Shown one piece after another: positions 31,603 through 59,225 of a stretch of DNA of 64,000 nt. Below the pieces are notes generated by a model, which was given only the letters and a program-made list of their open reading frames with translations, was not told the origin of the DNA and ran no database searches. Made by a program: the position numbers and the translations under genes. Source of the stretch: Mariniflexile litorale (GTDB taxonomy: Bacteria > Bacteroidota > Bacteroidia > Flavobacteriales > Flavobacteriaceae); assembly GCF_031128465.2 (NCBI RefSeq), contig NZ_CP155618.1:815501-879500 (forward strand), written 5' to 3'. Each line of letters begins with the position of its first letter. Within the stretch, counting starts at the first letter, position 1.

Positions 31603-34146
31603 CTAAAAATCAACCCTAAAACTCACATTAGGTGTTAAGCCTAATGACGTATTATTTATTTGAATGGCCGTATTAGAATCGTTTGGGTTTACTTTATAAT
31701 AACGATTTATTATATTTTTAGTATTGGTGATATTAATGACCCCAATTTTTAAAGAGGCATTTACTAATTGATAAATGTTGAATTTATAACTTAAAGACGC
31801 ATCTAAACGTTTAAATTCATCGAGATTCTTACTATTGGGCGCATCGTAATTAACATAAGTTACATTTCCTGATTCTACAGTTTCATTCCCAACAACTGGC
31901 GATGTATAAGGCTGTCCAGAGCGCCAAATACCCCCAACCGATATTTTTAAATTCTCTAAAATATCGTAATTAAAACCAATAGAAACAGAATGTCTAATAT
32001 CTACATTATTTGGAAAGGCTGAAGGTGTAAAGGTTTCAAATTTGTAATCGTTAATTGAATAGGTATAACTTAGCCAAGTACTATAATTATTGGCTGTTTT
32101 ATTTGCTAAAAACTCTAAGCCCTTTACGGTGTAATTACCAATAGCATTATTGTATTGAAAATTATTATAAAACCCTTGATTACTAGCTGTAATACCTTCC
32201 ACTGTTTTATAAAACCCCGAAGCGTCAATATTTAAATTATTTTGATTGAACTCGAACCCAAATGAGCCTTGTTTGCTTTCTGAAATTGGTATCGATTTTT
32301 CATTAGCCAAAATCCATCGTCGGTTTTCAACACCTAAAAAATCGTCTTGAAAATCAATTATTTGTGTTGCAGATTGATTTTTAAACTCGCCTTCCCATTT
32401 TAAAGCGAATTGATTCGATAGCTTCTGTCTTACATTCAACCGAGGCTCTATTAACAACTTTTCAAACTTTTGAAAATAATTAGCTCTCACACCTATTCTA
32501 AAAAAAGTAGTGCCTTTATTATATTCTGCTTGCGTGTAAAGTGCGTGATTTAACAATACATCTTTTTTAGTTTTATCGTACGAAGGTTTTGTAACTGTAG
32601 TTTCATTAAGAATACCTGTTTCATTAAACTGATATCCGTTTAAAACCGTTAAAAAGTCAGACACTTCATAATAAGTGTTTAATTTAAAACCGGTTTCTAA
32701 CACTTCATTAGCTTGAGTTAATAACTGATCCGATTCAATTCTATAATCATTTGCATCTACGTTATACTTTGAATAATAGGCTGAAAATTGAGAGCTTAAT
32801 TTAGAATTCCAGTTAGCCATCCAATGTCCGCCAAACCCTAAATTATTTTGGGTTAAATTGCTTGATTTAGATGTTGTTTCGTTTGCATTAGCAATACGTT
32901 CATAATACTCTAAATTATTATCGATGCTAATTACATTGGCTCTAAACTTATGTTGTTTGTTTAGATTGAATAACACTTTAGCCGTATAATCATAAAACAC
33001 AAAATTGGATGTTGTGGTTTGGTTTTCTATAGTCTCACTGTTGGTTTTTATATCACTATCCTGAAAACTTCTATCAAAATAATTGTCGTAAGTTGGTGTA
33101 TTAAAACCATCGGTTATGGATCTTCGTCCAGAAACATGAAACTCTAATTTTTTGTTGATAGGAATTTCTAAAAAAACATCAGCACTTATTAAGTTTGCTC
33201 CTGCTCCGCCAGAAAAATTTCCTGATAATTCATTTTTAGTAAACATATTTATGGTACTGGAAACACCATCACTATACTCACTACTTGTACCATTTTTAGA
33301 TACCACAACTTTATTGGTTAGGTTCGGATTGTAAGCCGAAATCAATCCAAAAAAATGTCCTGAATGATACATTTTAATACCATCCCAAAGCATGAGGTTT
33401 TGGTCGTTCGTACCTCCTCTCACATTAATATTTGCAATACTTTCATTCGTGCTTTCAACTCCAGGAAGCACTTGTATGGATTGTAAAATATCGGGATCTG
33501 TTAAACCTGGCAAAATACCAAAGGCTTTTGTATTTAAAACCGTACTTCCGTCTAACAACTTTTGAAAACCTGTAGTTAGGAATTTAGTTATGAGTACTTC
33601 ATTTAACGCTTCTTTATTTTCAACCAAGACAATTTGTTTGCAATTATTAATTTCTGAAAAAAGATATTTTGCATTTAATTCTTGACTTTTAAACCCGAGA
33701 TACGAAATAGTAATCATCGCATTTAGAGGCACTTCATTTAGCTGAAATTTTCCTTTATCGTTTGTAATCACTCCTTTTCTGCTATCATTCACAACAACTG
33801 AAGCACCAAATAAAGGGTCATTATTTTCCGAAGCAAACACAAAACCACAGATAGAAATAGTTTTCTCTATAACAGAAACAGTAACATATCTATTATTCAA
33901 AATTTTAAAATTTAATAGGGTTTTAGAATTAAGATACTCGATGGTTTCCTCTAGGTTAAATTCAGGGTTTGGTTGTTCAATAAATACACTAGAAAGATCA
34001 TCAAAAGCATATGAAAACTTGAGATCAAACTTTTGTTCCACTGTTTCTATTATTTCTGTCAGCGGTTTTTTATTCGAATTATTTTGAGAAAAACAGACAT
34101 TAACAATACATAGAACTATATAAATAACGCTTCTGCTATTTTTCAT
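31603..34146 (-). CDS. STN-domain TonB-dependent receptor
   Basis: This 847-residue outer-membrane receptor contains, in order: a signal peptide; an STN (secretin/TonB short N-terminal) signalling domain (residues about 28-90); a carboxypeptidase-regulatory-like beta domain (CGFVFASENNDPLFGASVVV); a plug (ILPGLTDPDILQSIQVLPGV, NVRGGTNDQNLMLWDGIKMYH); and a long barrel. The STN domain is the transducer that talks to the FecR protein encoded next to it. The substrate is unknown. It overlaps fecR by 11 nt. Confidence 0.92.
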   Translation of the reverse strand: MKNSRSVIYIVLCIVNVCFSQNNSNKKPLTEIIETVEQKFDLKFSYAFDDLSSVFIEQPNPEFNLEETIEYLNSKTLLNFKILNNRYVTVSVIEKTISICGFVFASENNDPLFGASVVVNDSRKGVITNDKGKFQLNEVPLNAMITISYLGFKSQELNAKYLFSEINNCKQIVLVENKEALNEVLITKFLTTGFQKLLDGSTVLNTKAFGILPGLTDPDILQSIQVLPGVESTNESIANINVRGGTNDQNLMLWDGIKMYHSGHFFGLISAYNPNLTNKVVVSKNGTSSEYSDGVSSTINMFTKNELSGNFSGGAGANLISADVFLEIPINKKLEFHVSGRRSITDGFNTPTYDNYFDRSFQDSDIKTNSETIENQTTTSNFVFYDYTAKVLFNLNKQHKFRANVISIDNNLEYYERIANANETTSKSSNLTQNNLGFGGHWMANWNSKLSSQFSAYYSKYNVDANDYRIESDQLLTQANEVLETGFKLNTYYEVSDFLTVLNGYQFNETGILNETTVTKPSYDKTKKDVLLNHALYTQAEYNKGTTFFRIGVRANYFQKFEKLLIEPRLNVRQKLSNQFALKWEGEFKNQSATQIIDFQDDFLGVENRRWILANEKSIPISESKQGSFGFEFNQNNLNIDASGFYKTVEGITASNQGFYNNFQYNNAIGNYTVKGLEFLANKTANNYSTWLSYTYSINDYKFETFTPSAFPNNVDIRHSVSIGFNYDILENLKISVGGIWRSGQPYTSPVVGNETVESGNVTYVNYDAPNSKNLDEFKRLDASLSYKFNIYQLVNASLKIGVINITNTKNIINRYYKVNPNDSNTAIQINNTSLGLTPNVSFRVDF

Positions 34147-35047
34147 ATTTATACAACGTAACTTGATTACCTTCTATTTTATAACTCAATTTTAAAGGAA
34201 TAGTGATTGATTGCAAAGCAATATTTTGGTCTTTATGGGTAAAGGCTCCAGTGAATAATTGAGAAGCATCTACACCTATTAAGGTTACTTTTAATTCGTA
34301 TTGTCTTTGAAATTCAGCTATAACTTGACTTAACGGAATCTTATCAAAACTAGTCTCTGCTTGCATCCAAGATGGATTTTCTGCATTAAACGCTTTAACC
34401 GATTCAATAGCACCATTTACAACTCTAAACGATTTACCCTTGGGTAATTTAACCGTTTCATCATTAAAAGTAACACTTACTAAACCCTCATAACATTGTA
34501 CTTCAAAATAGTTATCCCGTTCTTTAACATTAAATTGTGTACCTAAAACCTGAACTGTTCCAACATTGGTTGTTACAGTAAACTTTTTTCCTTTACTTAC
34601 TTTAAAAAAGGCTTCCCCATCTAATTGAAGATTCCGTTTATCTTTCCAAGTTTTTTTATTATACTTTAATTTTGATTTAGCATTTAAAATCACTTCTGAA
34701 TTATCAGGTAATGTTAATACTTGGTTTTGAGCTACTTGCGTTTCAAAAGTCATATTATTATTAAAAAACAAAAAATATGAAGATGTAAGCATCACCAAGA
34801 AAACAGCAGCTATTTTCATAAACATTTTAAAATTAAGCGGTATCACTTTAGCTTCATTCTTTGTAAGCTTTCTTTCTCTAAAATCTAACAACGCTTTTTG
34901 CACATCTACTTCAGGCGCTTGCATTTGTTTGGCATAAAAAGCTATTTTCTCTAGAGTTTCAATATTTTCAGATCGTTTTAAATCTTGAATTTGCTCCTCA
35001 TTAAGCTCATTATCAAACCACTTTAATATGTTATTTACGTTTTTCAT
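34136..35047 (-). CDS. FecR-type anti-sigma/sigma regulator
   Basis: A cytoplasmic N terminus (NILKWFDNELNEEQIQDL) is followed by one membrane segment (about 76-92). A periplasmic FecR domain comes next, with LTLPDNSEVILNAKSKLKYNKK and VQVLGTQFNVKERD, then the C-terminal STN-like domain (FDKIPLSQVIAEFQRQYELKV). It passes the receptor signal to the ECF sigma factor. A promoter-like motif lies 19 nt upstream of its start, so it may be transcribed separately from the sigma gene. Confidence 0.93.
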   Translation of the reverse strand: MKNVNNILKWFDNELNEEQIQDLKRSENIETLEKIAFYAKQMQAPEVDVQKALLDFRERKLTKNEAKVIPLNFKMFMKIAAVFLVMLTSSYFLFFNNNMTFETQVAQNQVLTLPDNSEVILNAKSKLKYNKKTWKDKRNLQLDGEAFFKVSKGKKFTVTTNVGTVQVLGTQFNVKERDNYFEVQCYEGLVSVTFNDETVKLPKGKSFRVVNGAIESVKAFNAENPSWMQAETSFDKIPLSQVIAEFQRQYELKVTLIGVDASQLFTGAFTHKDQNIALQSITIPLKLSYKIEGNQVTLYKYEK

Positions 35048-35065
35048 TTTTTATCACTTCAACTT

Positions 35066-35095
35066 TAAGACAACTTAAAATATATTTACCCTACC
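35066..35095 (-). promoter_or_regulatory. Candidate ECF-sigma promoter upstream of the FecR gene
   Basis: On the (-) strand GGTAGGGTA (35095-35087) is followed after 12 nt by GTTGTCTTA (35074-35066). The same two blocks with identical spacing occur twice on the (+) strand at 35655 and 35823. Confidence 0.65.
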
Positions 35096-35100
35096 TGACT

Positions 35101-35610
35101 TTAAATATTTTCGATATGTTCTCGTAAAATTTTTAAAGCTCCAGACATTCTTTTTTCTACAGCCTTCTGAGAAATATCTAATAAATCGGCTATTTCTCTA
35201 TATTTTTTACCTTCGATTCTATTTAATAAAAACACTTCGCGTTGTGCATCGGTTAATAGTGAAATGGCGTTTTGAAGCTTCTTTTTAAACTCTTCTTCCT
35301 CTAAAATATATTCGGGACTTTCATTTGTTCTATCTAAATAAGGTGACGCTTTTGCATATTCTAAAACTACCTTATTATGTTTTATGGTATTTAAAAACAA
35401 ATTATTAATGGTAGTAAATAAATAGGTTTTGGCTTTTGTAAAATCTATTTTAGAACAATTCTCCCAAATTTTAGAAAATGCATCCTGCACAAAATCTAAA
35501 GCACCATCTTTATCTCCACATTTATAATAGGCAAAATTGCTAGCCGATTGTATATGTTCCAAATAAAAAGTATTAAAATAAGTTTCCTCACAAAGTTTAT
35601 TCGCATCCAT
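35101..35610 (-). CDS. ECF RNA polymerase sigma factor (FecI-like)
   Basis: Region 2 (DGALDFVQDAFSKIWEN, TYLFTTINNLFLNTIK) and region 4 (LTDAQREVFLLNRIEGKKYREIADLLDISQKAVEKRMSGALKIL) are clear in a 169-residue protein, standard for Bacteroidota FecI-type factors. It is expected to transcribe the local TonB-receptor operon when released by FecR. fecR starts 54 nt downstream. Confidence 0.94.
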   Translation of the reverse strand: MDANKLCEETYFNTFYLEHIQSASNFAYYKCGDKDGALDFVQDAFSKIWENCSKIDFTKAKTYLFTTINNLFLNTIKHNKVVLEYAKASPYLDRTNESPEYILEEEEFKKKLQNAISLLTDAQREVFLLNRIEGKKYREIADLLDISQKAVEKRMSGALKILREHIENI

Positions 35611-39907: not shown

Positions 39908-41881
<1,974 letters not shown>

Positions 41882-43089: not shown

Positions 43090-43359
43090 ATGAGTAAAAT
43101 TATGACGGTCGACGTATTGTCGAGTATTAAAGGAGCACAACCCAGTGAGGCGGTGAATAAATTATTTGATGTGATTAAAAATGCACAACCTACAAATAAC
43201 AACTCTTTTAATGATAATCATAATAATGGCGTGTCGTTAAACGATTTAAGAGACGATGTGGTCATTGAAAGTTCTGCCATCGAGAAACAAATCATTATCG
43301 AAAATTTTCCAAAATCAAAGAATGGTTATTTGGTAGTTTCTAAAGTGATAGAAGAATAA
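43090..43359 (+). CDS. gatC: Divergent amidotransferase subunit GatC
   Basis: The 89-residue protein ends LRDDVVIESSAIEKQIIIENFPKSKNGYLVVSKVIEE. This aligns with the C-terminal GatC signature LRED(E/D)V...APDxxxGYFxVPKVIE. The N-terminal half does not show the usual helical GatC sequence and contains an Asn/His-rich stretch (TNNNSFNDNHNN), so it is unusually diverged. GatC acts as the belt that stabilises GatA on GatB. The position 2 nt before gatA and the C-terminal match support the call; a general search would likely list it as hypothetical. Confidence 0.72.
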   Translation: MSKIMTVDVLSSIKGAQPSEAVNKLFDVIKNAQPTNNNSFNDNHNNGVSLNDLRDDVVIESSAIEKQIIIENFPKSKNGYLVVSKVIEE

Positions 43360-43361
43360 TT

Positions 43362-44762
43362 ATGGATTCTCAAATAAAACAACTTCATCAACAATTGGTG
43401 AACAAAGACATTTCTTGTACCACTTTAATTCAAGAAAGATTAGATGCCTTAAAAACAAATACCAACAACACCGTAAACTCTTTATTGGATACGTTGGCGC
43501 TAGAATTAGCTGCCAAAGTAGATGCCAAAATAGCCAATGGAGAAACAATTGGCTTATTGGAAGGTATTCCGTTTGGCATTAAAGATGTGTACATGGTACA
43601 AGGTACATACACAACGGCGAGTTCTGATTTACTTAAAAATTACAAATCGGCATACACAGCAACAGCCATTCAAAAATTATTGGATGCGGGAGCTATTCCT
43701 TTAGTAAAAGAAAACTGCGATAGTTTTGGTCATGGCTCTTCTAGTGAAAATACCATTTTTGGTGCTGTAAAAAATGCGATCAACCCCGATTTAGTGGGTG
43801 GTGGCTCTAGTGGTGGCTCTGCGGTAAATGTAGCTAAAGATTATACGGTATTTTCTATAGGTGGTGATACAGGAGGTTCCGTACGCCAACCGGCAGGTTA
43901 CAATAACGTGTATGGTTTAAAACCGACTTACGGACGTATTTCGCGTTTTGGTTTGATGGCGTATGCATCATCTACCGATTGTGTTGGGCCTATTGCAAAA
44001 TCGGTTGAAGATATTCGGATTGTGTTGAATGTGATGAGTGGTAAAGACGGTAAAGATCAAACGACCTACGCTTCCACAGAAATAAGCGAAGAAAATATTT
44101 CTAATTCAAGAGATATTAAAACCATTGGATATTTCAAAAATTTCATTGAAAGTGAAGCGATTGACCCAAAAATAAAAGACGACTTTTTAGCAACTATTGA
44201 AAAAATAAAAGCCAAAGGCATTGAAGTAAAAGAACTGGATTTCTTTAAATCGGATATTTTGGTTTCTACCTACTATACTTTGGCAATGGCTGAAACGGCT
44301 TCCAATCTATCACGCTTGGATGGTAGTAATTATGGCAACAGAATTGAAGATAAAAACTTAAAAGAATCTTATGCAGTAACGCGTTCGGAGAATTTTTCAG
44401 AAGAAACCAAACGTCGTATTGTTGGTGGCAATCAAGTGTTATCTCAAGGATTTTCAGATGAAATTTATTTAAAAGGCTTGGCATTACGAGATTCTATTTC
44501 AGCCAATTTTGAAAATGATTTTAAAGAGGTTGATATCATTTTATCTCCGGTAACACCCAGCACACCTCCAAAAATTGGAGATAGCTTAAAAGATCCACAC
44601 GCGATGTATTTAAGTGATGCCTATACGGTTGGTTTTAGCTTAGGGCAATTACCCACGCTAACCGCACCACAAGGCACAGAAACTGGCTTACAAATTACAG
44701 CCGCTAAAAATAACGACGAACTTGTTTTGAAGTTTGCTAACTTCTTAAAAGACACATTATAA
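43362..44762 (+). CDS. gatA: Asp-tRNA(Asn)/Glu-tRNA(Gln) amidotransferase subunit GatA
   Basis: This amidase-signature enzyme hydrolyses glutamine to supply ammonia to GatB. The catalytic triad is visible: Lys in PFGIKDVY (about residue 72), cis-Ser in GGGSSGGSA (about 146-154) and the nucleophile Ser in GGDTGGSVRQPAG (about 171). GLKPTYGRISRFGLMAYASS is characteristic of GatA rather than other amidases. The length is 466 residues. Its stop overlaps the next start by one base. Confidence 0.94.
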   Translation: MDSQIKQLHQQLVNKDISCTTLIQERLDALKTNTNNTVNSLLDTLALELAAKVDAKIANGETIGLLEGIPFGIKDVYMVQGTYTTASSDLLKNYKSAYTATAIQKLLDAGAIPLVKENCDSFGHGSSSENTIFGAVKNAINPDLVGGGSSGGSAVNVAKDYTVFSIGGDTGGSVRQPAGYNNVYGLKPTYGRISRFGLMAYASSTDCVGPIAKSVEDIRIVLNVMSGKDGKDQTTYASTEISEENISNSRDIKTIGYFKNFIESEAIDPKIKDDFLATIEKIKAKGIEVKELDFFKSDILVSTYYTLAMAETASNLSRLDGSNYGNRIEDKNLKESYAVTRSENFSEETKRRIVGGNQVLSQGFSDEIYLKGLALRDSISANFENDFKEVDIILSPVTPSTPPKIGDSLKDPHAMYLSDAYTVGFSLGQLPTLTAPQGTETGLQITAAKNNDELVLKFANFLKDTL

Positions 44763-47700
44763 TGGATTTAGAGCAATTAGATGCTGCATTAAAAGCGCAC
44801 GAGTTAGAATTGGTTATCGGACTGGAAACACATGTTCGGTTAAATACTAAAACCAAATTATTTTGTTCTTGTCCGAATCAAGAAATAGAAACTCCAAACC
44901 AAAACATCTGTTCGGTTTGTACAGGGCAAATGGGCGTTTTGCCTGCTCTAAATAAAGAAGCAATTACGAAGGCTATTTATTTTGGAAAAGCAGTAAAATC
45001 GACTTTTGAAAATGAAGTGATTTCTTGGGACAGAAAGCATTATGAATACCCAGACAACCCGAAAAATATTCAAATTACGCAGTTTCACAACCCAGTGATT
45101 CCTGACGGACAAGTATCTTGTTTCCGTAATGATGGATCTCAGTTTACGGTTAATTTAACACAAGTGCATATTGAAGAGGATGCCGCTAAATTGATGCACG
45201 AAAAAACCGTTTCGTTAGTCGATTTTAATAAAGCCGGTGTGCCTTTAATTGAAATTGTTACCGAACCTTGCATCCGACATATAGAAGATGCTTCTACCTA
45301 TGCACAGTACATCCAACGTATTGTTCAAAATTTAAAAATATCAGAAGCCAATCTTGAAAAAGGAGAATTTAAATCGGATGTTTCGGTATCACTTCGCAAA
45401 AAACATACTTACGATTTAAATCCGCGAACCGAGATTAAAAACTTGAACTCGTTTAAGTTTATGGTCGATGCGTTGAAGGAAGAAGTTGAAAAGCAACTCA
45501 ACTATTTTATAGAGCATAAAGAGTTTAGACCCGACCAAACCACGGTTTTATGGGATGCCGATTTAAAGCAAACCAAAACCATGCGTAAAAAGGAATTTGA
45601 AGCCGATTACCGTTTCATATCCGAGCCCGATCTACCGTTTGTAAACATAAAAGACGCCGTTGCTGCTATTACAGTAGACACAAGAACCCTTCCGTTTGCA
45701 GTAGAATCTATTTTGATAAACGGTGGTGTGTTACCACAGGATGCCAAATTTTTTACTGCGGATTCATTACGTTCAGAAACCTTCGTTGCGATTCATAATG
45801 AATTGAACGATGCGTCGTTTGTGGCGAAAACATTATCAAATAATATAAAACCTGAGGAATACGCTCAAATTCAAAATATTCAAGACTTTATTGAAATTTT
45901 TAAAGGTTTCAAAGAAGAAAAAGTAACGGTTGTATTGGTTCAAAATGCGATTAAATCATTGTTAGCCGATGCTTCGTTTGATTATAAAACCTATTTTGAA
46001 GCCAACACCATTTCCGAAGAAAAAATTTACGATGCGATTGCTAAAGTCATTTCAGAAAATGAAGCAACAGCCAACGAGATTAAAGCTGGAAACCAAGGAA
46101 AAGCAGGTATTTTAGTTGGAAAAATCATCGCGATTATTGGTAAAGGCGCTTCGGGAAAAGTGATTCGCGAAGGGATTTTAAATCAGTTGCAAAGTTCAGA
46201 GTTAAAAGTTGAAAGTTCTTCTGAAGCAACTAAACAACAAACACCTCAACAACAAACTTCTAAAACACAGGAAGAAGTATTACCGCAAATTCCGATCATC
46301 ATCAAAGAAGAGTACAGAACCCATGTGATTACCGCTATTTCTGAAGCTAATATTTCAGAAACAGTCACATTTGCAGGTTGGGTCTCTAGTGTGCGCGATC
46401 ATGGTGAATTGATATTTATCGATTTACGTGATTCAAGTACCGAAATTTTTCAAGTGCGTTTAAGTAGAGAATCCTTCCCTAATTTAGACGAACTAGTAAA
46501 ACTAAAGCCAGAATCGGTTATTACCGTGTCAGGAACCATTGTTCAACGTAAAGAAGACGATTACAACACCGCTTTACGAACTGGAAAAATAGAATTAGAA
46601 GCTACCGATTTAGATATTTTAAACCTATCAAGAACGCTGCCTTTCGAAATAAAACGTGCAACTAAAACCAACGAGAACACCCGTTTTCAATACAAGTATT
46701 TAGACCATAGAAATGACGATGTACGTCGCGTGATTGTTAACCGCCACAAGGTGATTAAATTACTGCGTGACATTTTAGATAATGAAGACTTTTTAGAAAT
46801 TGAAACGCCTATTTTAAGTGCAGGAACCGATGAAGGCGCACGTGAATTCATTGTACCAACACGTAAACAAGCAGGTGCATTTTACACCTTGCCACAAGCA
46901 CCTCAACAGTTTAAACAAATGTTGATGGTAAGTGGTTATGAAAAGTATTTCCAAATTGCACGTTGTTTTAGAGATGAAGATTCTCGTGGCGACCGTCAAC
47001 CAGAATTTACCCAATTAGATATTGAAGTTGCCTATGCGAGTATGCAACAAATCATCGATTTAAACACCAACATGTTTAATGAAGTGGTAAACAAAATATA
47101 TGGTAACAAATGGATATTGCGTCCGTTTGAAATCATTACCTATCAAGATGCCATGGCATTTTATGGTTGTGATAGACCCGATTTACGTTTCGGCTTAAAA
47201 CTTCAAGACATTACAAATATTGTAAAAGATACCACCTTCCAAGTATTTAGTAAACCTATTGAAGAAGGCGGTATTGTAAAATGTATTAAAGTATCGGCCG
47301 AAGAACAAGGCAGCAAACGTATGTCTAAAGGGCAAATTGAAAAATTAACAGCGATTGCACAACAACACGGTTTGGGTGGTTTGGCTTATATTATTGTAAA
47401 TGAAAACGATTTACAATCGCCTATCATTAAATTTTTAGGTAAAGATATAGCTGCTGGCATTATTAAAGCCACCAACGCACAAGTGGGTGATATCGTATTT
47501 TTCTCAGCTGCCGATTACGCCACAGCAAATAAAGCTTTAGATGCGGTGCGTCAAGAATTAGGTGCGATGTTGAAATTAATCAACCCTAAAGAATTACGCC
47601 CTGCCTGGGTAGTCGATTTCCCGATGTTTGAAAAAACAGATGAAGGCCGTTGGACCTTTACCCACAACCCATTTTCAATGCCTGCCGTTGTTGATTTAGA

Positions 47701-48094
47701 CAAACACATGAATGGCAAAGAAGAGGAAATAGGAAGCATTATTGCCCAACAGTATGACTTAATATTAAACGGTTACGAAATTGGTGGTGGTTCGGTGCGT
47801 GCACACAAACCTGAAATTTTAGAAGCGACCTATAAAAACATGGGGTACAATAAAGAAGAGATGCTGAAAAGTGTGGGCACCATGTATAAAGCCTTCCATT
47901 ATGGTGCACCGCCACACGGGGGTATTGCTTGGGGCGTTGATCGTTTGATGATGATTTTAGAGAAAAAAGCATCGATACGTGAAGTGATGGCGTTCCCAAA
48001 AACAGGGACTAGTGAAGATTTATTATTTGGTGCTCCTTCCCTACTTTCTGACAAGAAAATTGAGGAAATGAATGTGCGCGTTATGAAGAAATAA
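44762..48094 (+). CDS. gatB-aspS: Bifunctional GatB - aspartyl-tRNA synthetase fusion
   Basis: One 1110-residue frame contains a complete GatB (residues 1 to about 476) and a complete bacterial-type AspRS (about 518-1110). GatB shows GLETHVRL, the zinc cysteines FCSCPN and CSVCTGQMG, the cradle domain and the C-terminal YqeY-like tail (KAGILVGKIIAIIGKGASGKV). AspRS begins YRTHVITAIS, has the OB-fold anticodon domain (RDHGELIFIDLRD), class II motif 2 (RCFRDEDSRGDRQPEFTQLD), the GAD insertion and motif 3 (GIAWGVDRLMMIL). The Ser/Gln/Thr-rich linker of about 41 residues joins them. The chain could charge tRNA with Asp and then amidate misacylated Asp-tRNA(Asn). His in RDHGE matches the non-discriminating type; a second reported specificity position appears to be Asp, so specificity is open. 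Confidence 0.93.
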   Translation: MDLEQLDAALKAHELELVIGLETHVRLNTKTKLFCSCPNQEIETPNQNICSVCTGQMGVLPALNKEAITKAIYFGKAVKSTFENEVISWDRKHYEYPDNPKNIQITQFHNPVIPDGQVSCFRNDGSQFTVNLTQVHIEEDAAKLMHEKTVSLVDFNKAGVPLIEIVTEPCIRHIEDASTYAQYIQRIVQNLKISEANLEKGEFKSDVSVSLRKKHTYDLNPRTEIKNLNSFKFMVDALKEEVEKQLNYFIEHKEFRPDQTTVLWDADLKQTKTMRKKEFEADYRFISEPDLPFVNIKDAVAAITVDTRTLPFAVESILINGGVLPQDAKFFTADSLRSETFVAIHNELNDASFVAKTLSNNIKPEEYAQIQNIQDFIEIFKGFKEEKVTVVLVQNAIKSLLADASFDYKTYFEANTISEEKIYDAIAKVISENEATANEIKAGNQGKAGILVGKIIAIIGKGASGKVIREGILNQLQSSELKVESSSEATKQQTPQQQTSKTQEEVLPQIPIIIKEEYRTHVITAISEANISETVTFAGWVSSVRDHGELIFIDLRDSSTEIFQVRLSRESFPNLDELVKLKPESVITVSGTIVQRKEDDYNTALRTGKIELEATDLDILNLSRTLPFEIKRATKTNENTRFQYKYLDHRNDDVRRVIVNRHKVIKLLRDILDNEDFLEIETPILSAGTDEGAREFIVPTRKQAGAFYTLPQAPQQFKQMLMVSGYEKYFQIARCFRDEDSRGDRQPEFTQLDIEVAYASMQQIIDLNTNMFNEVVNKIYGNKWILRPFEIITYQDAMAFYGCDRPDLRFGLKLQDITNIVKDTTFQVFSKPIEEGGIVKCIKVSAEEQGSKRMSKGQIEKLTAIAQQHGLGGLAYIIVNENDLQSPIIKFLGKDIAAGIIKATNAQVGDIVFFSAADYATANKALDAVRQELGAMLKLINPKELRPAWVVDFPMFEKTDEGRWTFTHNPFSMPAVVDLDKHMNGKEEEIGSIIAQQYDLILNGYEIGGGSVRAHKPEILEATYKNMGYNKEEMLKSVGTMYKAFHYGAPPHGGIAWGVDRLMMILEKKASIREVMAFPKTGTSEDLLFGAPSLLSDKKIEEMNVRVMKK
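46190..46217 (+). repeat. Four tandem AAAGTT-type heptamers in the fusion linker
   Basis: CAAAGTT, CAGAGTT, AAAAGTT and GAAAGTT follow each other with an exact 7-nt period. They encode QSSELKVES at the GatB/linker junction. Similar AAAGTT words make up intergenic repeats elsewhere in the window. Confidence 0.8.
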
Positions 48095-57603: not shown

Positions 57604-57620
57604 TGGTTTAATTTTTTAAA

Positions 57621-58250
57621 ATGAATAAAGAGCTATTAAGCTTAGTTAATAAAGGTGAAATGTTACCATTAATGGAAGAGTTCTACACCATACAAGGTGA
57701 AGGCTTTCATAAAGGAACTGCTGCCTATTTTGTTAGAATAGGTGGTTGTGATGTGGGGTGTCATTGGTGCGATGTAAAAGAAAGTTGGAATGCTAATTTA
57801 CATCCACCTACAGCTATTTCAAAAATTGTTGAAAATGCAAAAAAATACAGTAATACCATAGTGGTTACAGGTGGTGAGCCTTTAACTTGGAATATGACAC
57901 CGCTTACTACACAATTAAAAGCAGAAGGATTACAAATACATATTGAAACCTCTGGAGCTTATAAATTAACAGGCGTTTGGGATTGGATTTGTTTATCTCC
58001 CAAAAAAATGAAACTTCCTACTAAAGAAGTTTATGCAAAAGCTCATGAACTTAAGGTAATTATATATAATAAAGACGATTTTCGCTTTGCGGAAGAACAA
58101 GCAGCCAAAGTAAATGAAGAATGTATTTTGTATTTACAACCAGAGTGGAGCAAACGCGATAAAGTAATTCCAGAAATTGTAGATTATGTGATGACAAACC
58201 CAAAATGGAAAGTATCACTACAAACACATAAATATTTAAATATTCCTTAA
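57621..58250 (+). CDS. queE: 7-carboxy-7-deazaguanine synthase
   Basis: This radical SAM enzyme converts carboxytetrahydropterin to carboxydeazaguanine in queuosine synthesis. The cluster motif is GCDVGCHWC (CX3CX2C, about residues 47-55), VVTGGEPL is near 94, and the N-terminal YTIQGEGFHKGTAAYFVRIGG is diagnostic of QueE. The length is 209 residues. A small membrane-protein gene follows 21 nt downstream. Confidence 0.95.
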   Translation: MNKELLSLVNKGEMLPLMEEFYTIQGEGFHKGTAAYFVRIGGCDVGCHWCDVKESWNANLHPPTAISKIVENAKKYSNTIVVTGGEPLTWNMTPLTTQLKAEGLQIHIETSGAYKLTGVWDWICLSPKKMKLPTKEVYAKAHELKVIIYNKDDFRFAEEQAAKVNEECILYLQPEWSKRDKVIPEIVDYVMTNPKWKVSLQTHKYLNIP

Positions 58251-58473: not shown

Positions 58474-59016
58474 TTATTTTGTAAAAGGAACAACAACTCT
58501 AATAGTTCCCCAGCCTAGATGCATTTTTATGGTATTTCCATCTTCGGTAAAAGCAATTGAAAAGGCATCAAGTGCATCTCCTGATGTAACAGGAACGTTC
58601 AAACGTGCTACATCATTTGCTTCCTTATAAAAATAAGAACCCCAAACGTTTAAATCTTTACTAACAATCGCTGTCCATTCTTTATCACCTGGAATCACAT
58701 AAAAAGTATAAGTACCTGTTTTTATAGTTTTACTTCCTAATTTCATGTCTCTGTATAGTGTTAACTCCGCAGCTTCATTAGCACCTGTACGCCATACTTC
58801 ACCGTTTTTAGCCAAATCACTAACTTCTCGTCCATTTAATTGTGGTCTACTATAAACAATCTTAATAAGTTTATTGGCATCTTTATAGCTTGTTGGAAAT
58901 GAAGCCGCATCCATTGGACTTTTATCTAACTTAGCAAAATCCTGTGCATTGATGTTAGTCGAAACTAATAAAGTTAGCACAAAACTAATCATGGTAATAA
59001 AGGTTGATTTTTTCAT
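58474..59016 (-). CDS. DUF2911 domain secreted protein
   Basis: A signal peptide (FVLTLLVSTNINAQ) precedes the DUF2911 domain. It has IVYSRPQLNGREVSDLAKNGEVWRTGANEAAELTL and YTFYVIPGDKEWTAIVSKDLNVWGSY, both strongly characteristic. The length is 180 residues. These periplasmic proteins occur widely in Bacteroidota without an established role. Confidence 0.92.
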   Translation of the reverse strand: MKKSTFITMISFVLTLLVSTNINAQDFAKLDKSPMDAASFPTSYKDANKLIKIVYSRPQLNGREVSDLAKNGEVWRTGANEAAELTLYRDMKLGSKTIKTGTYTFYVIPGDKEWTAIVSKDLNVWGSYFYKEANDVARLNVPVTSGDALDAFSIAFTEDGNTIKMHLGWGTIRVVVPFTK

Positions 59017-59225
59017 TGGAATTGTGTTTTTAAATTTCCACGAAAGTGAAAATTGAGTATTGTTTTAGTTATATGGTTAAATATAAGTCTAAAAAATCTT
59101 AAAGTTTTTATAAAACTCGGTAAGGAATGTTAAAGTTTGCAATTAGAGAATCAAAATACAGATAAATAAAATGTATAATTTTTCATAAACATTTTAAGTT
59201 TATAATTGTCTTTTTACTGATTCTC

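Follow-up and report, generated by a model that had tools for sequence, protein, structure and literature searches.

A GatB-AspRS fusion in Flavobacteriaceae as a probable covalent Asn-transamidosome and alternative to asparagine synthetase

Transamidosomes, relaxed aspartyl-tRNA synthetases (AspRSs) and, in the form of an NCBIfam model, a fusion of AspRS with the amidotransferase subunit GatC are already known, and PDB entry 4wj3 is, we assume, the Asn-transamidosome of Pseudomonas aeruginosa together with its tRNA. According to the accessible text of PMC4206432, tRNA-dependent asparagine synthesis has been reported for Thermus, Deinococcus and Bdellovibrio; Thermus thermophilus and Deinococcus radiodurans have asparaginyl- and glutaminyl-tRNA synthetases (AsnRS and GlnRS) and, beside these, produce asparagine on tRNA(Asn) by means of the amidotransferase GatCAB and a second AspRS, and there are Deinococcus-Thermus genera without asparagine synthetases. 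Bdellovibrio bacteriovorus, which has AsnRS, GlnRS, GatCAB and a non-discriminating AspRS and neither AsnA nor AsnB, is described there on the strength of two Escherichia coli assays and in vitro aminoacylation. In the same part of this 2014 survey, 18 of 547 genera have this pattern, Bacteroidetes included, and a second AspRS is recorded only in five Deinococcus-Thermus genera (PMC4206432). A fusion within GatCAB, the gatC-gatA gene of Mycobacterium smegmatis, was found by forward genetics and causes mistranslation, as far as the accessible part of PMC7541841 goes. Here we describe a 64,000-nucleotide stretch of the Mariniflexile litorale genome (NZ_CP155618.1, positions 815,501 to 879,500), referred to in full as the window, in which gatC and gatA are followed by one frame that encodes both GatB and AspRS. 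We hold with considerable confidence that this operon is a self-contained covalent Asn-transamidosome and the host's asparagine route, a functional alternative to AsnB (and AsnA) that swaps with asnB, in many cases at a shared slot. The titles and abstract openings that we searched, with subscription journals outside the scope, contained no report of a GatB-AspRS fusion.

The three genes are uninterrupted open frames on the + strand (43090-48094), and the gatA stop overlaps the start of the fusion by one base, as it does in 46 of the 47 relatives parsed from 80 named loci. A first-pass annotation of the window had read a complete GatB and a complete AspRS in a single 1110-residue frame 3' of gatC and gatA; the intact frame and the NCBIfam matches agree with it, residues 14-477 matching the GatB model NF004012 (386 bits, cut-off 338) and residues 517-1110 the AspRS model NF001750 (708 bits, cut-off 443). 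Pfam finds an OB-fold, the class II core and a GAD insertion in the AspRS part and the catalytic domain in the GatB part, where the GatB/YqeY tail falls just under the Pfam cut-off. GatB aligns to the GatB of 4wj3 over residues 15-355, and four cysteines that presumably have a role in this subunit (Cys35, Cys37, Cys50 and Cys53) are invariant in 40 sequences. A second synthetase of the host, GlnRS (L010:511-2541), scores over the cut-off of a GlnRS/YqeY fusion model (PRK14703, 817 bits) and may carry a tail of the GatB kind. GatA reaches 375 bits against PF01425, over the Pfam amidase cut-off, and 433 bits against TIGR00132, under the curated cut-off of 481, and aligns to 4wj3_A over residues 12-445 with 311 bits. 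It contains GIKD, GGSSGGS and GGDTGGS, which we take to be the lysine and serine motifs of the amidase family. Among 47 GatA relatives parsed, GIKD is present in 46 and GGSSGGS in all; the third motif is the string by which these relatives were picked and hence provides no test.

The fusion is a conserved protein of the host family. In a sample of 395 family genomes with a completeness of at least 90%, the full-length fusion occurs in 66, at 79-100% identity and in frames of 1115-1130 codons without stops, and the next matches among those listed have about 40% identity and cover the AspRS part only. A search with the GatB domain returned the same 66 of 395 genomes, with one copy each and always in the long frame, and no unfused GatB was found among the 395. 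Because 66 genomes share the same open frame, we reject chance, a frameshift or an assembly error as the origin of the fusion, and with them the frameshift or sequencing error at the junction that the first-pass annotation had considered. In a sample of the phylum, GatB is present in 222 of 266 genomes, and among the best-scoring matches listed (about 150), which do not include the host's own row, all frames have 475-621 codons. In four genomes of the phylum (G502, G543, G555 and G578) the GatB domain match is very weak, with E about 1e-45 to 1e-47 against 1e-109 to 1e-128 in the other phylum genomes outside the host family. In a search of named genomes, the best 80 of 574 loci place the fusion in Confluentibacter, Mariniflexile, Algibacter, Tamlana, Flavivirga, Polaribacter, Lutibacter, Flavobacterium, Flavicella and others, nearly all of them Flavobacteriaceae. 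The fusion on one contig binned as Lentimicrobium (L113) groups within Flavobacterium in the fusion tree; misbinning or contamination of the bin is probable.

The gene inventory of the host suggests a role for the operon in asparagine supply. Its genome, a single contig of 4,521,428 bases that is 99.77% complete, encodes separate AspRS, LysRS, AsnRS, GluRS and GlnRS, all over cut-off, so that asnS, glnS and a second aspS, for which the first-pass annotation had recommended a search, are all present. With AsnRS there, we reject its loss as an explanation of why this host has the operon, and since GlnRS and the second AspRS are present too, neither translation step needs GatCAB as long as free asparagine is available. 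Neither AsnA nor AsnB was found in the complete genome, where the AsnB domain has a single, weak match, in the tRNA-thiolation enzyme MnmA (20.9 bits); a host without GatCAB would thus have no means of making asparagine. The combination of AsnRS, GlnRS and GatCAB with absence of AsnA and AsnB is the Thermus and Bdellovibrio pattern.

Consistent with this, the fusion excludes housekeeping AsnB, and often stands in its place, when fusion-bearing genomes are compared with non-fused relatives. AsnB scored over the cut-off of NF006949 in 297 of the 395 family genomes, namely in none of the 66 with the fusion and in 297 of the 329 others (Fisher p 4.8e-51, relatedness ignored). Of the remaining 32 non-fusion genomes, 3 contain AsnB only in fragmentary or split form, and 29 show no AsnB match or a weak one. 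AsnA, for which the search covered the 66 fusion genomes and 14 of these 29, is absent from all 66. It is present in 11 of the 14 (G020, G188, G216, G223, G237, G306, G006, G030, G048, G053 and G353), as a third alternative in the family. In addition, 62 of the 66 fusion genomes have AsnRS at E 1e-50 or better; no AsnRS was found in G203 (Flavicella marina 2A-7, as shown by identical DNA), G195, G153 and G325, the last a single-contig genome. For Asn-tRNA(Asn) these four carriers have no visible source other than the fusion, which in carriers of this kind, such as Flavicella marina, should be essential for translation. The fused transamidosome proposed in the first-pass annotation is supported; that the operon probably substitutes for an asparagine synthetase had not been recognised there.

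Both alternatives also share a chromosomal slot in most loci read. We chose by hand 40 asnB regions from AsnB-bearing genomes, in two sets of 20, the first with six regions from genera in which fusion carriers also occur. In 32 of the 40, asnB is found upstream of gyrB and on its strand, and DUF2911 lies within the region in 32 as well. The fusion operon is upstream of gyrB in 58 of the 80 named loci (43 on the opposite and 15 on the same strand), one or more of the genes gyrB, mdh, queE and DUF2911 are present at 65 of the 80, and asnB is found in none of the 80. It could be argued that the exclusion merely follows clade inheritance and not functional replacement, since the fusion tree mostly follows genera, so that much of the fusion is inherited, and the Fisher test is blind to relatedness. 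Against this, both states occur inside the genera g6, g45, g98 and g118, and probably inside g112, with GatB in G537 and G583 (in frames of unlisted length) and AsnB in G111, G270 and G377. Furthermore, a quick gyrB tree of 77 proteins (50 from fusion loci and 27 from asnB loci), from which the direction of change is not readable, needs 11 changes between the two states, at least 7 of them forced by starred branches, compared to a shuffled mean of 22.6. With the shared slot added, we regard inheritance alone as an extremely improbable explanation and retain that of functional exchange. In the same tree the window gyrB is nearest to those of Mariniflexile and Confluentibacter. At three loci (L085, L086 and L108) gyrB matches that of the window at 93-94% and the fusion only at 84-85%, and a distant fusion beside a close gyrB suggests transfer; if gyrB moved together with the neighbouring operon, this could blur the gyrB-tree test.

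Several findings weigh against the proposed function, the first of them at the residues for tRNA specificity. His31 and Gly83 of P. aeruginosa AspRS, we assume, mark a relaxed enzyme, and a lysine at the second position a strict one; the corresponding residues of the fusion are His547 and Asp599. In 94 distinct fusions (110 rows less 16 duplicates), the first position is His in 94 and the second is Asp in 93 and Glu in one, and never Gly. The first-pass annotation had noted the His in RDHGE and the Asp for Gly, and had left the specificity in doubt on account of the latter; both residues are confirmed, and so is the doubt. Separate AspRSs (8 from fusion genomes and 13 from others) have Lys at both positions in 21 of 21 cases, and by these residues look strict. 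The fused AspRS is thus distinct in its signature from the separate enzyme, yet does not fully match known relaxed enzymes; either relaxed specificity or dedication to tRNA(Asn) is possible, and we describe it as probably working like a non-discriminating enzyme and, for want of the Gly, do not class it as a typical member. In the four carriers without AsnRS it has His in all, followed by Asp in three and Glu in Flavicella, and the separate AspRS of G325 shows the two-Lys signature.

The exchange of Gly for Asp also favours an alternative in which the fused AspRS acts on tRNA(Asp) alone, GatCAB serves Glu-tRNA(Gln) or nothing, and the fusion is incidental; the host's possession of AsnRS and GlnRS speaks for this alternative too. 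However, the separate Lys/Lys AspRS and GlnRS of the host already perform the tRNA(Asp) and tRNA(Gln) tasks, AsnB is excluded and AsnA absent, and four fusion genomes have no detectable AsnRS, and we consider this alternative highly improbable. Recent duplication of the host aspS as the source of the fused AspRS is not supported either: it is no nearer to AspRSs of its own family (413-441 bits against 21 of them) than to the nine best bacterial AspRSs in PDB (419-445 bits), which presumably include T. thermophilus, P. aeruginosa, mycobacterial and E. coli entries.

Further points against the proposed function arise from GatC, from AsnB-like genes and from the slot. GatC is poorly recognisable: it scores 21.2 bits with Pfam and 20.2 bits with NCBIfam, each under cut-off, and matches no GatC in PDB, while its operon position and C-terminal half fit GatC. 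In 46 relatives aligned to the window gatC, of 88-90 residues, the first 35 or so residues (43090-43190) are strongly conserved and lie mostly outside the GatC-model match, possibly as an adaptation to the fused partner. An AsnB-like gene exceeds the cut-off of the broad model TIGR01536 in 27 of the 66 fusion genomes, the host having none, so the fusion need not be the sole route there. These genes, which do well with TIGR01536 but poorly with NF006949 (best E-value 3.6e-79), we take for putative paralogues of polysaccharide clusters, and it is because TIGR01536 mixes in paralogues that NF006949 was used for the repeat count (with TIGR01536, 61 genomes were below cut-off by hand and 60 by tally, the extra one probably being G295 with a split gene, and 61 was used). 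As for the slot, gyrB is missing from the stretch in 8 of the 40 asnB regions and 22 of the 80 fusion loci, some of which are on short contigs, and in the window queE and DUF2911 lie about 10 kb past the operon, with ffh, folD and others between.

At the gene level, a single open frame indicates that AspRS and GatB are physically joined. The linker, put at about 41 residues in the first-pass annotation, has about 40 here, and the segment equivalent to residues 478-516 spans 36-50 residues in the 94 distinct fusions and 38-42 in 77 of them. Its mean majority residue reaches 51%, compared to 83-95% in the domains, and on this evidence the linker appears to be a flexible tether whose length is under selection. 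Being variable and probably flexible, it would be accessible to proteases, and linker cleavage or an internal start would leave GatB and AspRS as two proteins that associate non-covalently, as they do in other bacteria. This outcome is very unlikely in our view: the 45 codons preceding the AspRS part hold no conserved start (ATG in 11, GTG in 12 and TTG in 30 of the 94 rows parsed, with 16 more rows not parsed), a ribosome-site-like motif precedes a linker start in 1 of the 94, and the linker frame is open in every fusion copy. A structure prediction of the fusion was poor (mean predicted local distance difference test score, pLDDT, 50; predicted template modelling score, pTM, 0.30), we think because the 40 alignment rows are all close fusions, and nothing was concluded from it.

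Taken together, the genomic evidence of missing AsnA and AsnB, exclusion of asnB, a shared slot and four carriers without AsnRS makes a covalently linked transamidosome for tRNA-dependent asparagine synthesis the best-supported reading, in line with the first-pass annotation. The fused AspRS would put aspartate on tRNA(Asn), the 3' end of which would then move to the tethered GatB, and GatA, as the ammonia donor, would act with GatB and GatC in an amidation that gives Asn-tRNA(Asn). The separate, probably discriminating AspRS would serve tRNA(Asp), while AsnRS would re-use free asparagine and GlnRS would cover glutamine. For charging of tRNA(Asn) and amidation we argue by analogy with the known pathway; channelling, by which the misacylated tRNA would be kept from release, we infer from the tether alone. 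It is also conceivable, if on balance doubtful, that the fused AspRS is dedicated to tRNA(Asn) and not merely relaxed, making the operon a one-piece asparagine module that swaps with asnB at one slot. This idea draws on an analogy with GluRS2 enzymes, which charge only tRNA(Gln) according to the accessible part of PMC9976931, and if it is correct, the permanent tether to GatB would allow a strict AspRS to be retained for tRNA(Asp), with Asp-tRNA(Asn) never set free. No tRNA genes were found in the window or in 60 scanned loci.

If the proposed function is correct, the operon provides, in natural and covalent form, a complex known from separate partners, in which one linker gives a handle on the value of channelling. 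In a common bacterial family it would also be a clear case of an asparagine synthetase being swapped for a tRNA-based route, an exchange that took place several times and often at one and the same locus. The features of the window are collected in Table 1. Upstream of the operon, receptor-like, anti-sigma-like and sigma-factor-like genes, so named by sequence appearance only, stand in a row (31603-35610), and the queE-like gene has no Pfam match at 1e-10.

Table 1. The operon, the parts of the fusion and the landmark genes, in window positions
Feature	Position	Strand	Description
gatC	43090-43359	+	89 residues; only the C-terminal GatC half is recognisable; conserved, unusual N-terminal ~35 residues
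gatA	43362-44762	+	466 residues; amidase subunit
gatB::aspS fusion frame	44762-48094	+	1110 residues; ATG start
GatB part of fusion	44762-46192	+	residues 1-477; catalytic domain and YqeY-like tail
Linker of fusion	46193-46309	+	residues 478-516; hydrophilic; sequence varies among relatives, length is similar
AspRS part of fusion	46310-48094	+	residues 517-1110; bacterial-type; OB-fold, class II core, GAD insertion
gyrB	39908-41857	-	landmark; adjoined by asnB in most asnB-bearing relatives read
queE-like gene	57612-58247	+	second landmark of the asnB neighbourhood; QueE match of at most 122 bits, cut-off 200
DUF2911 gene	58477-59022	-	third landmark of the asnB neighbourhood; PF11138, 133 bits

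Finally, we compared the locus with known systems. Like M. smegmatis gatC-gatA, it involves a fused GatCAB subunit; that fusion differs in lying within the amidotransferase, and no synthetase is named in the title of the report (PMC7541841). The AspRS-GatC fusion (NF009460, PRK12820) likewise joins AspRS to a GatCAB subunit, but to another subunit and in another order, and the window fusion scores 465 bits against NF009460 (cut-off 1379), with only the AspRS part matched. With the P. aeruginosa Asn-transamidosome (4wj3), annotated Asp/Asn in PDB, the fusion shares a bacterial-type AspRS with His in RDHG; unlike there, where AspRS and GatB are separate chains and Gly stands in RPEG, it has a single chain and Asp in RKED. 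Bdellovibrio bacteriovorus differs in that its AspRS, by the accessible account, is single and unfused (PMC4206432). As in T. thermophilus and D. radiodurans, to the extent that they are described there, the host has AsnRS, GlnRS, GatCAB and a second AspRS and no asparagine synthetase, whereas that second AspRS is archaeal-type and separate in these two species and bacterial-type, with a GAD domain, and fused in M. litorale.

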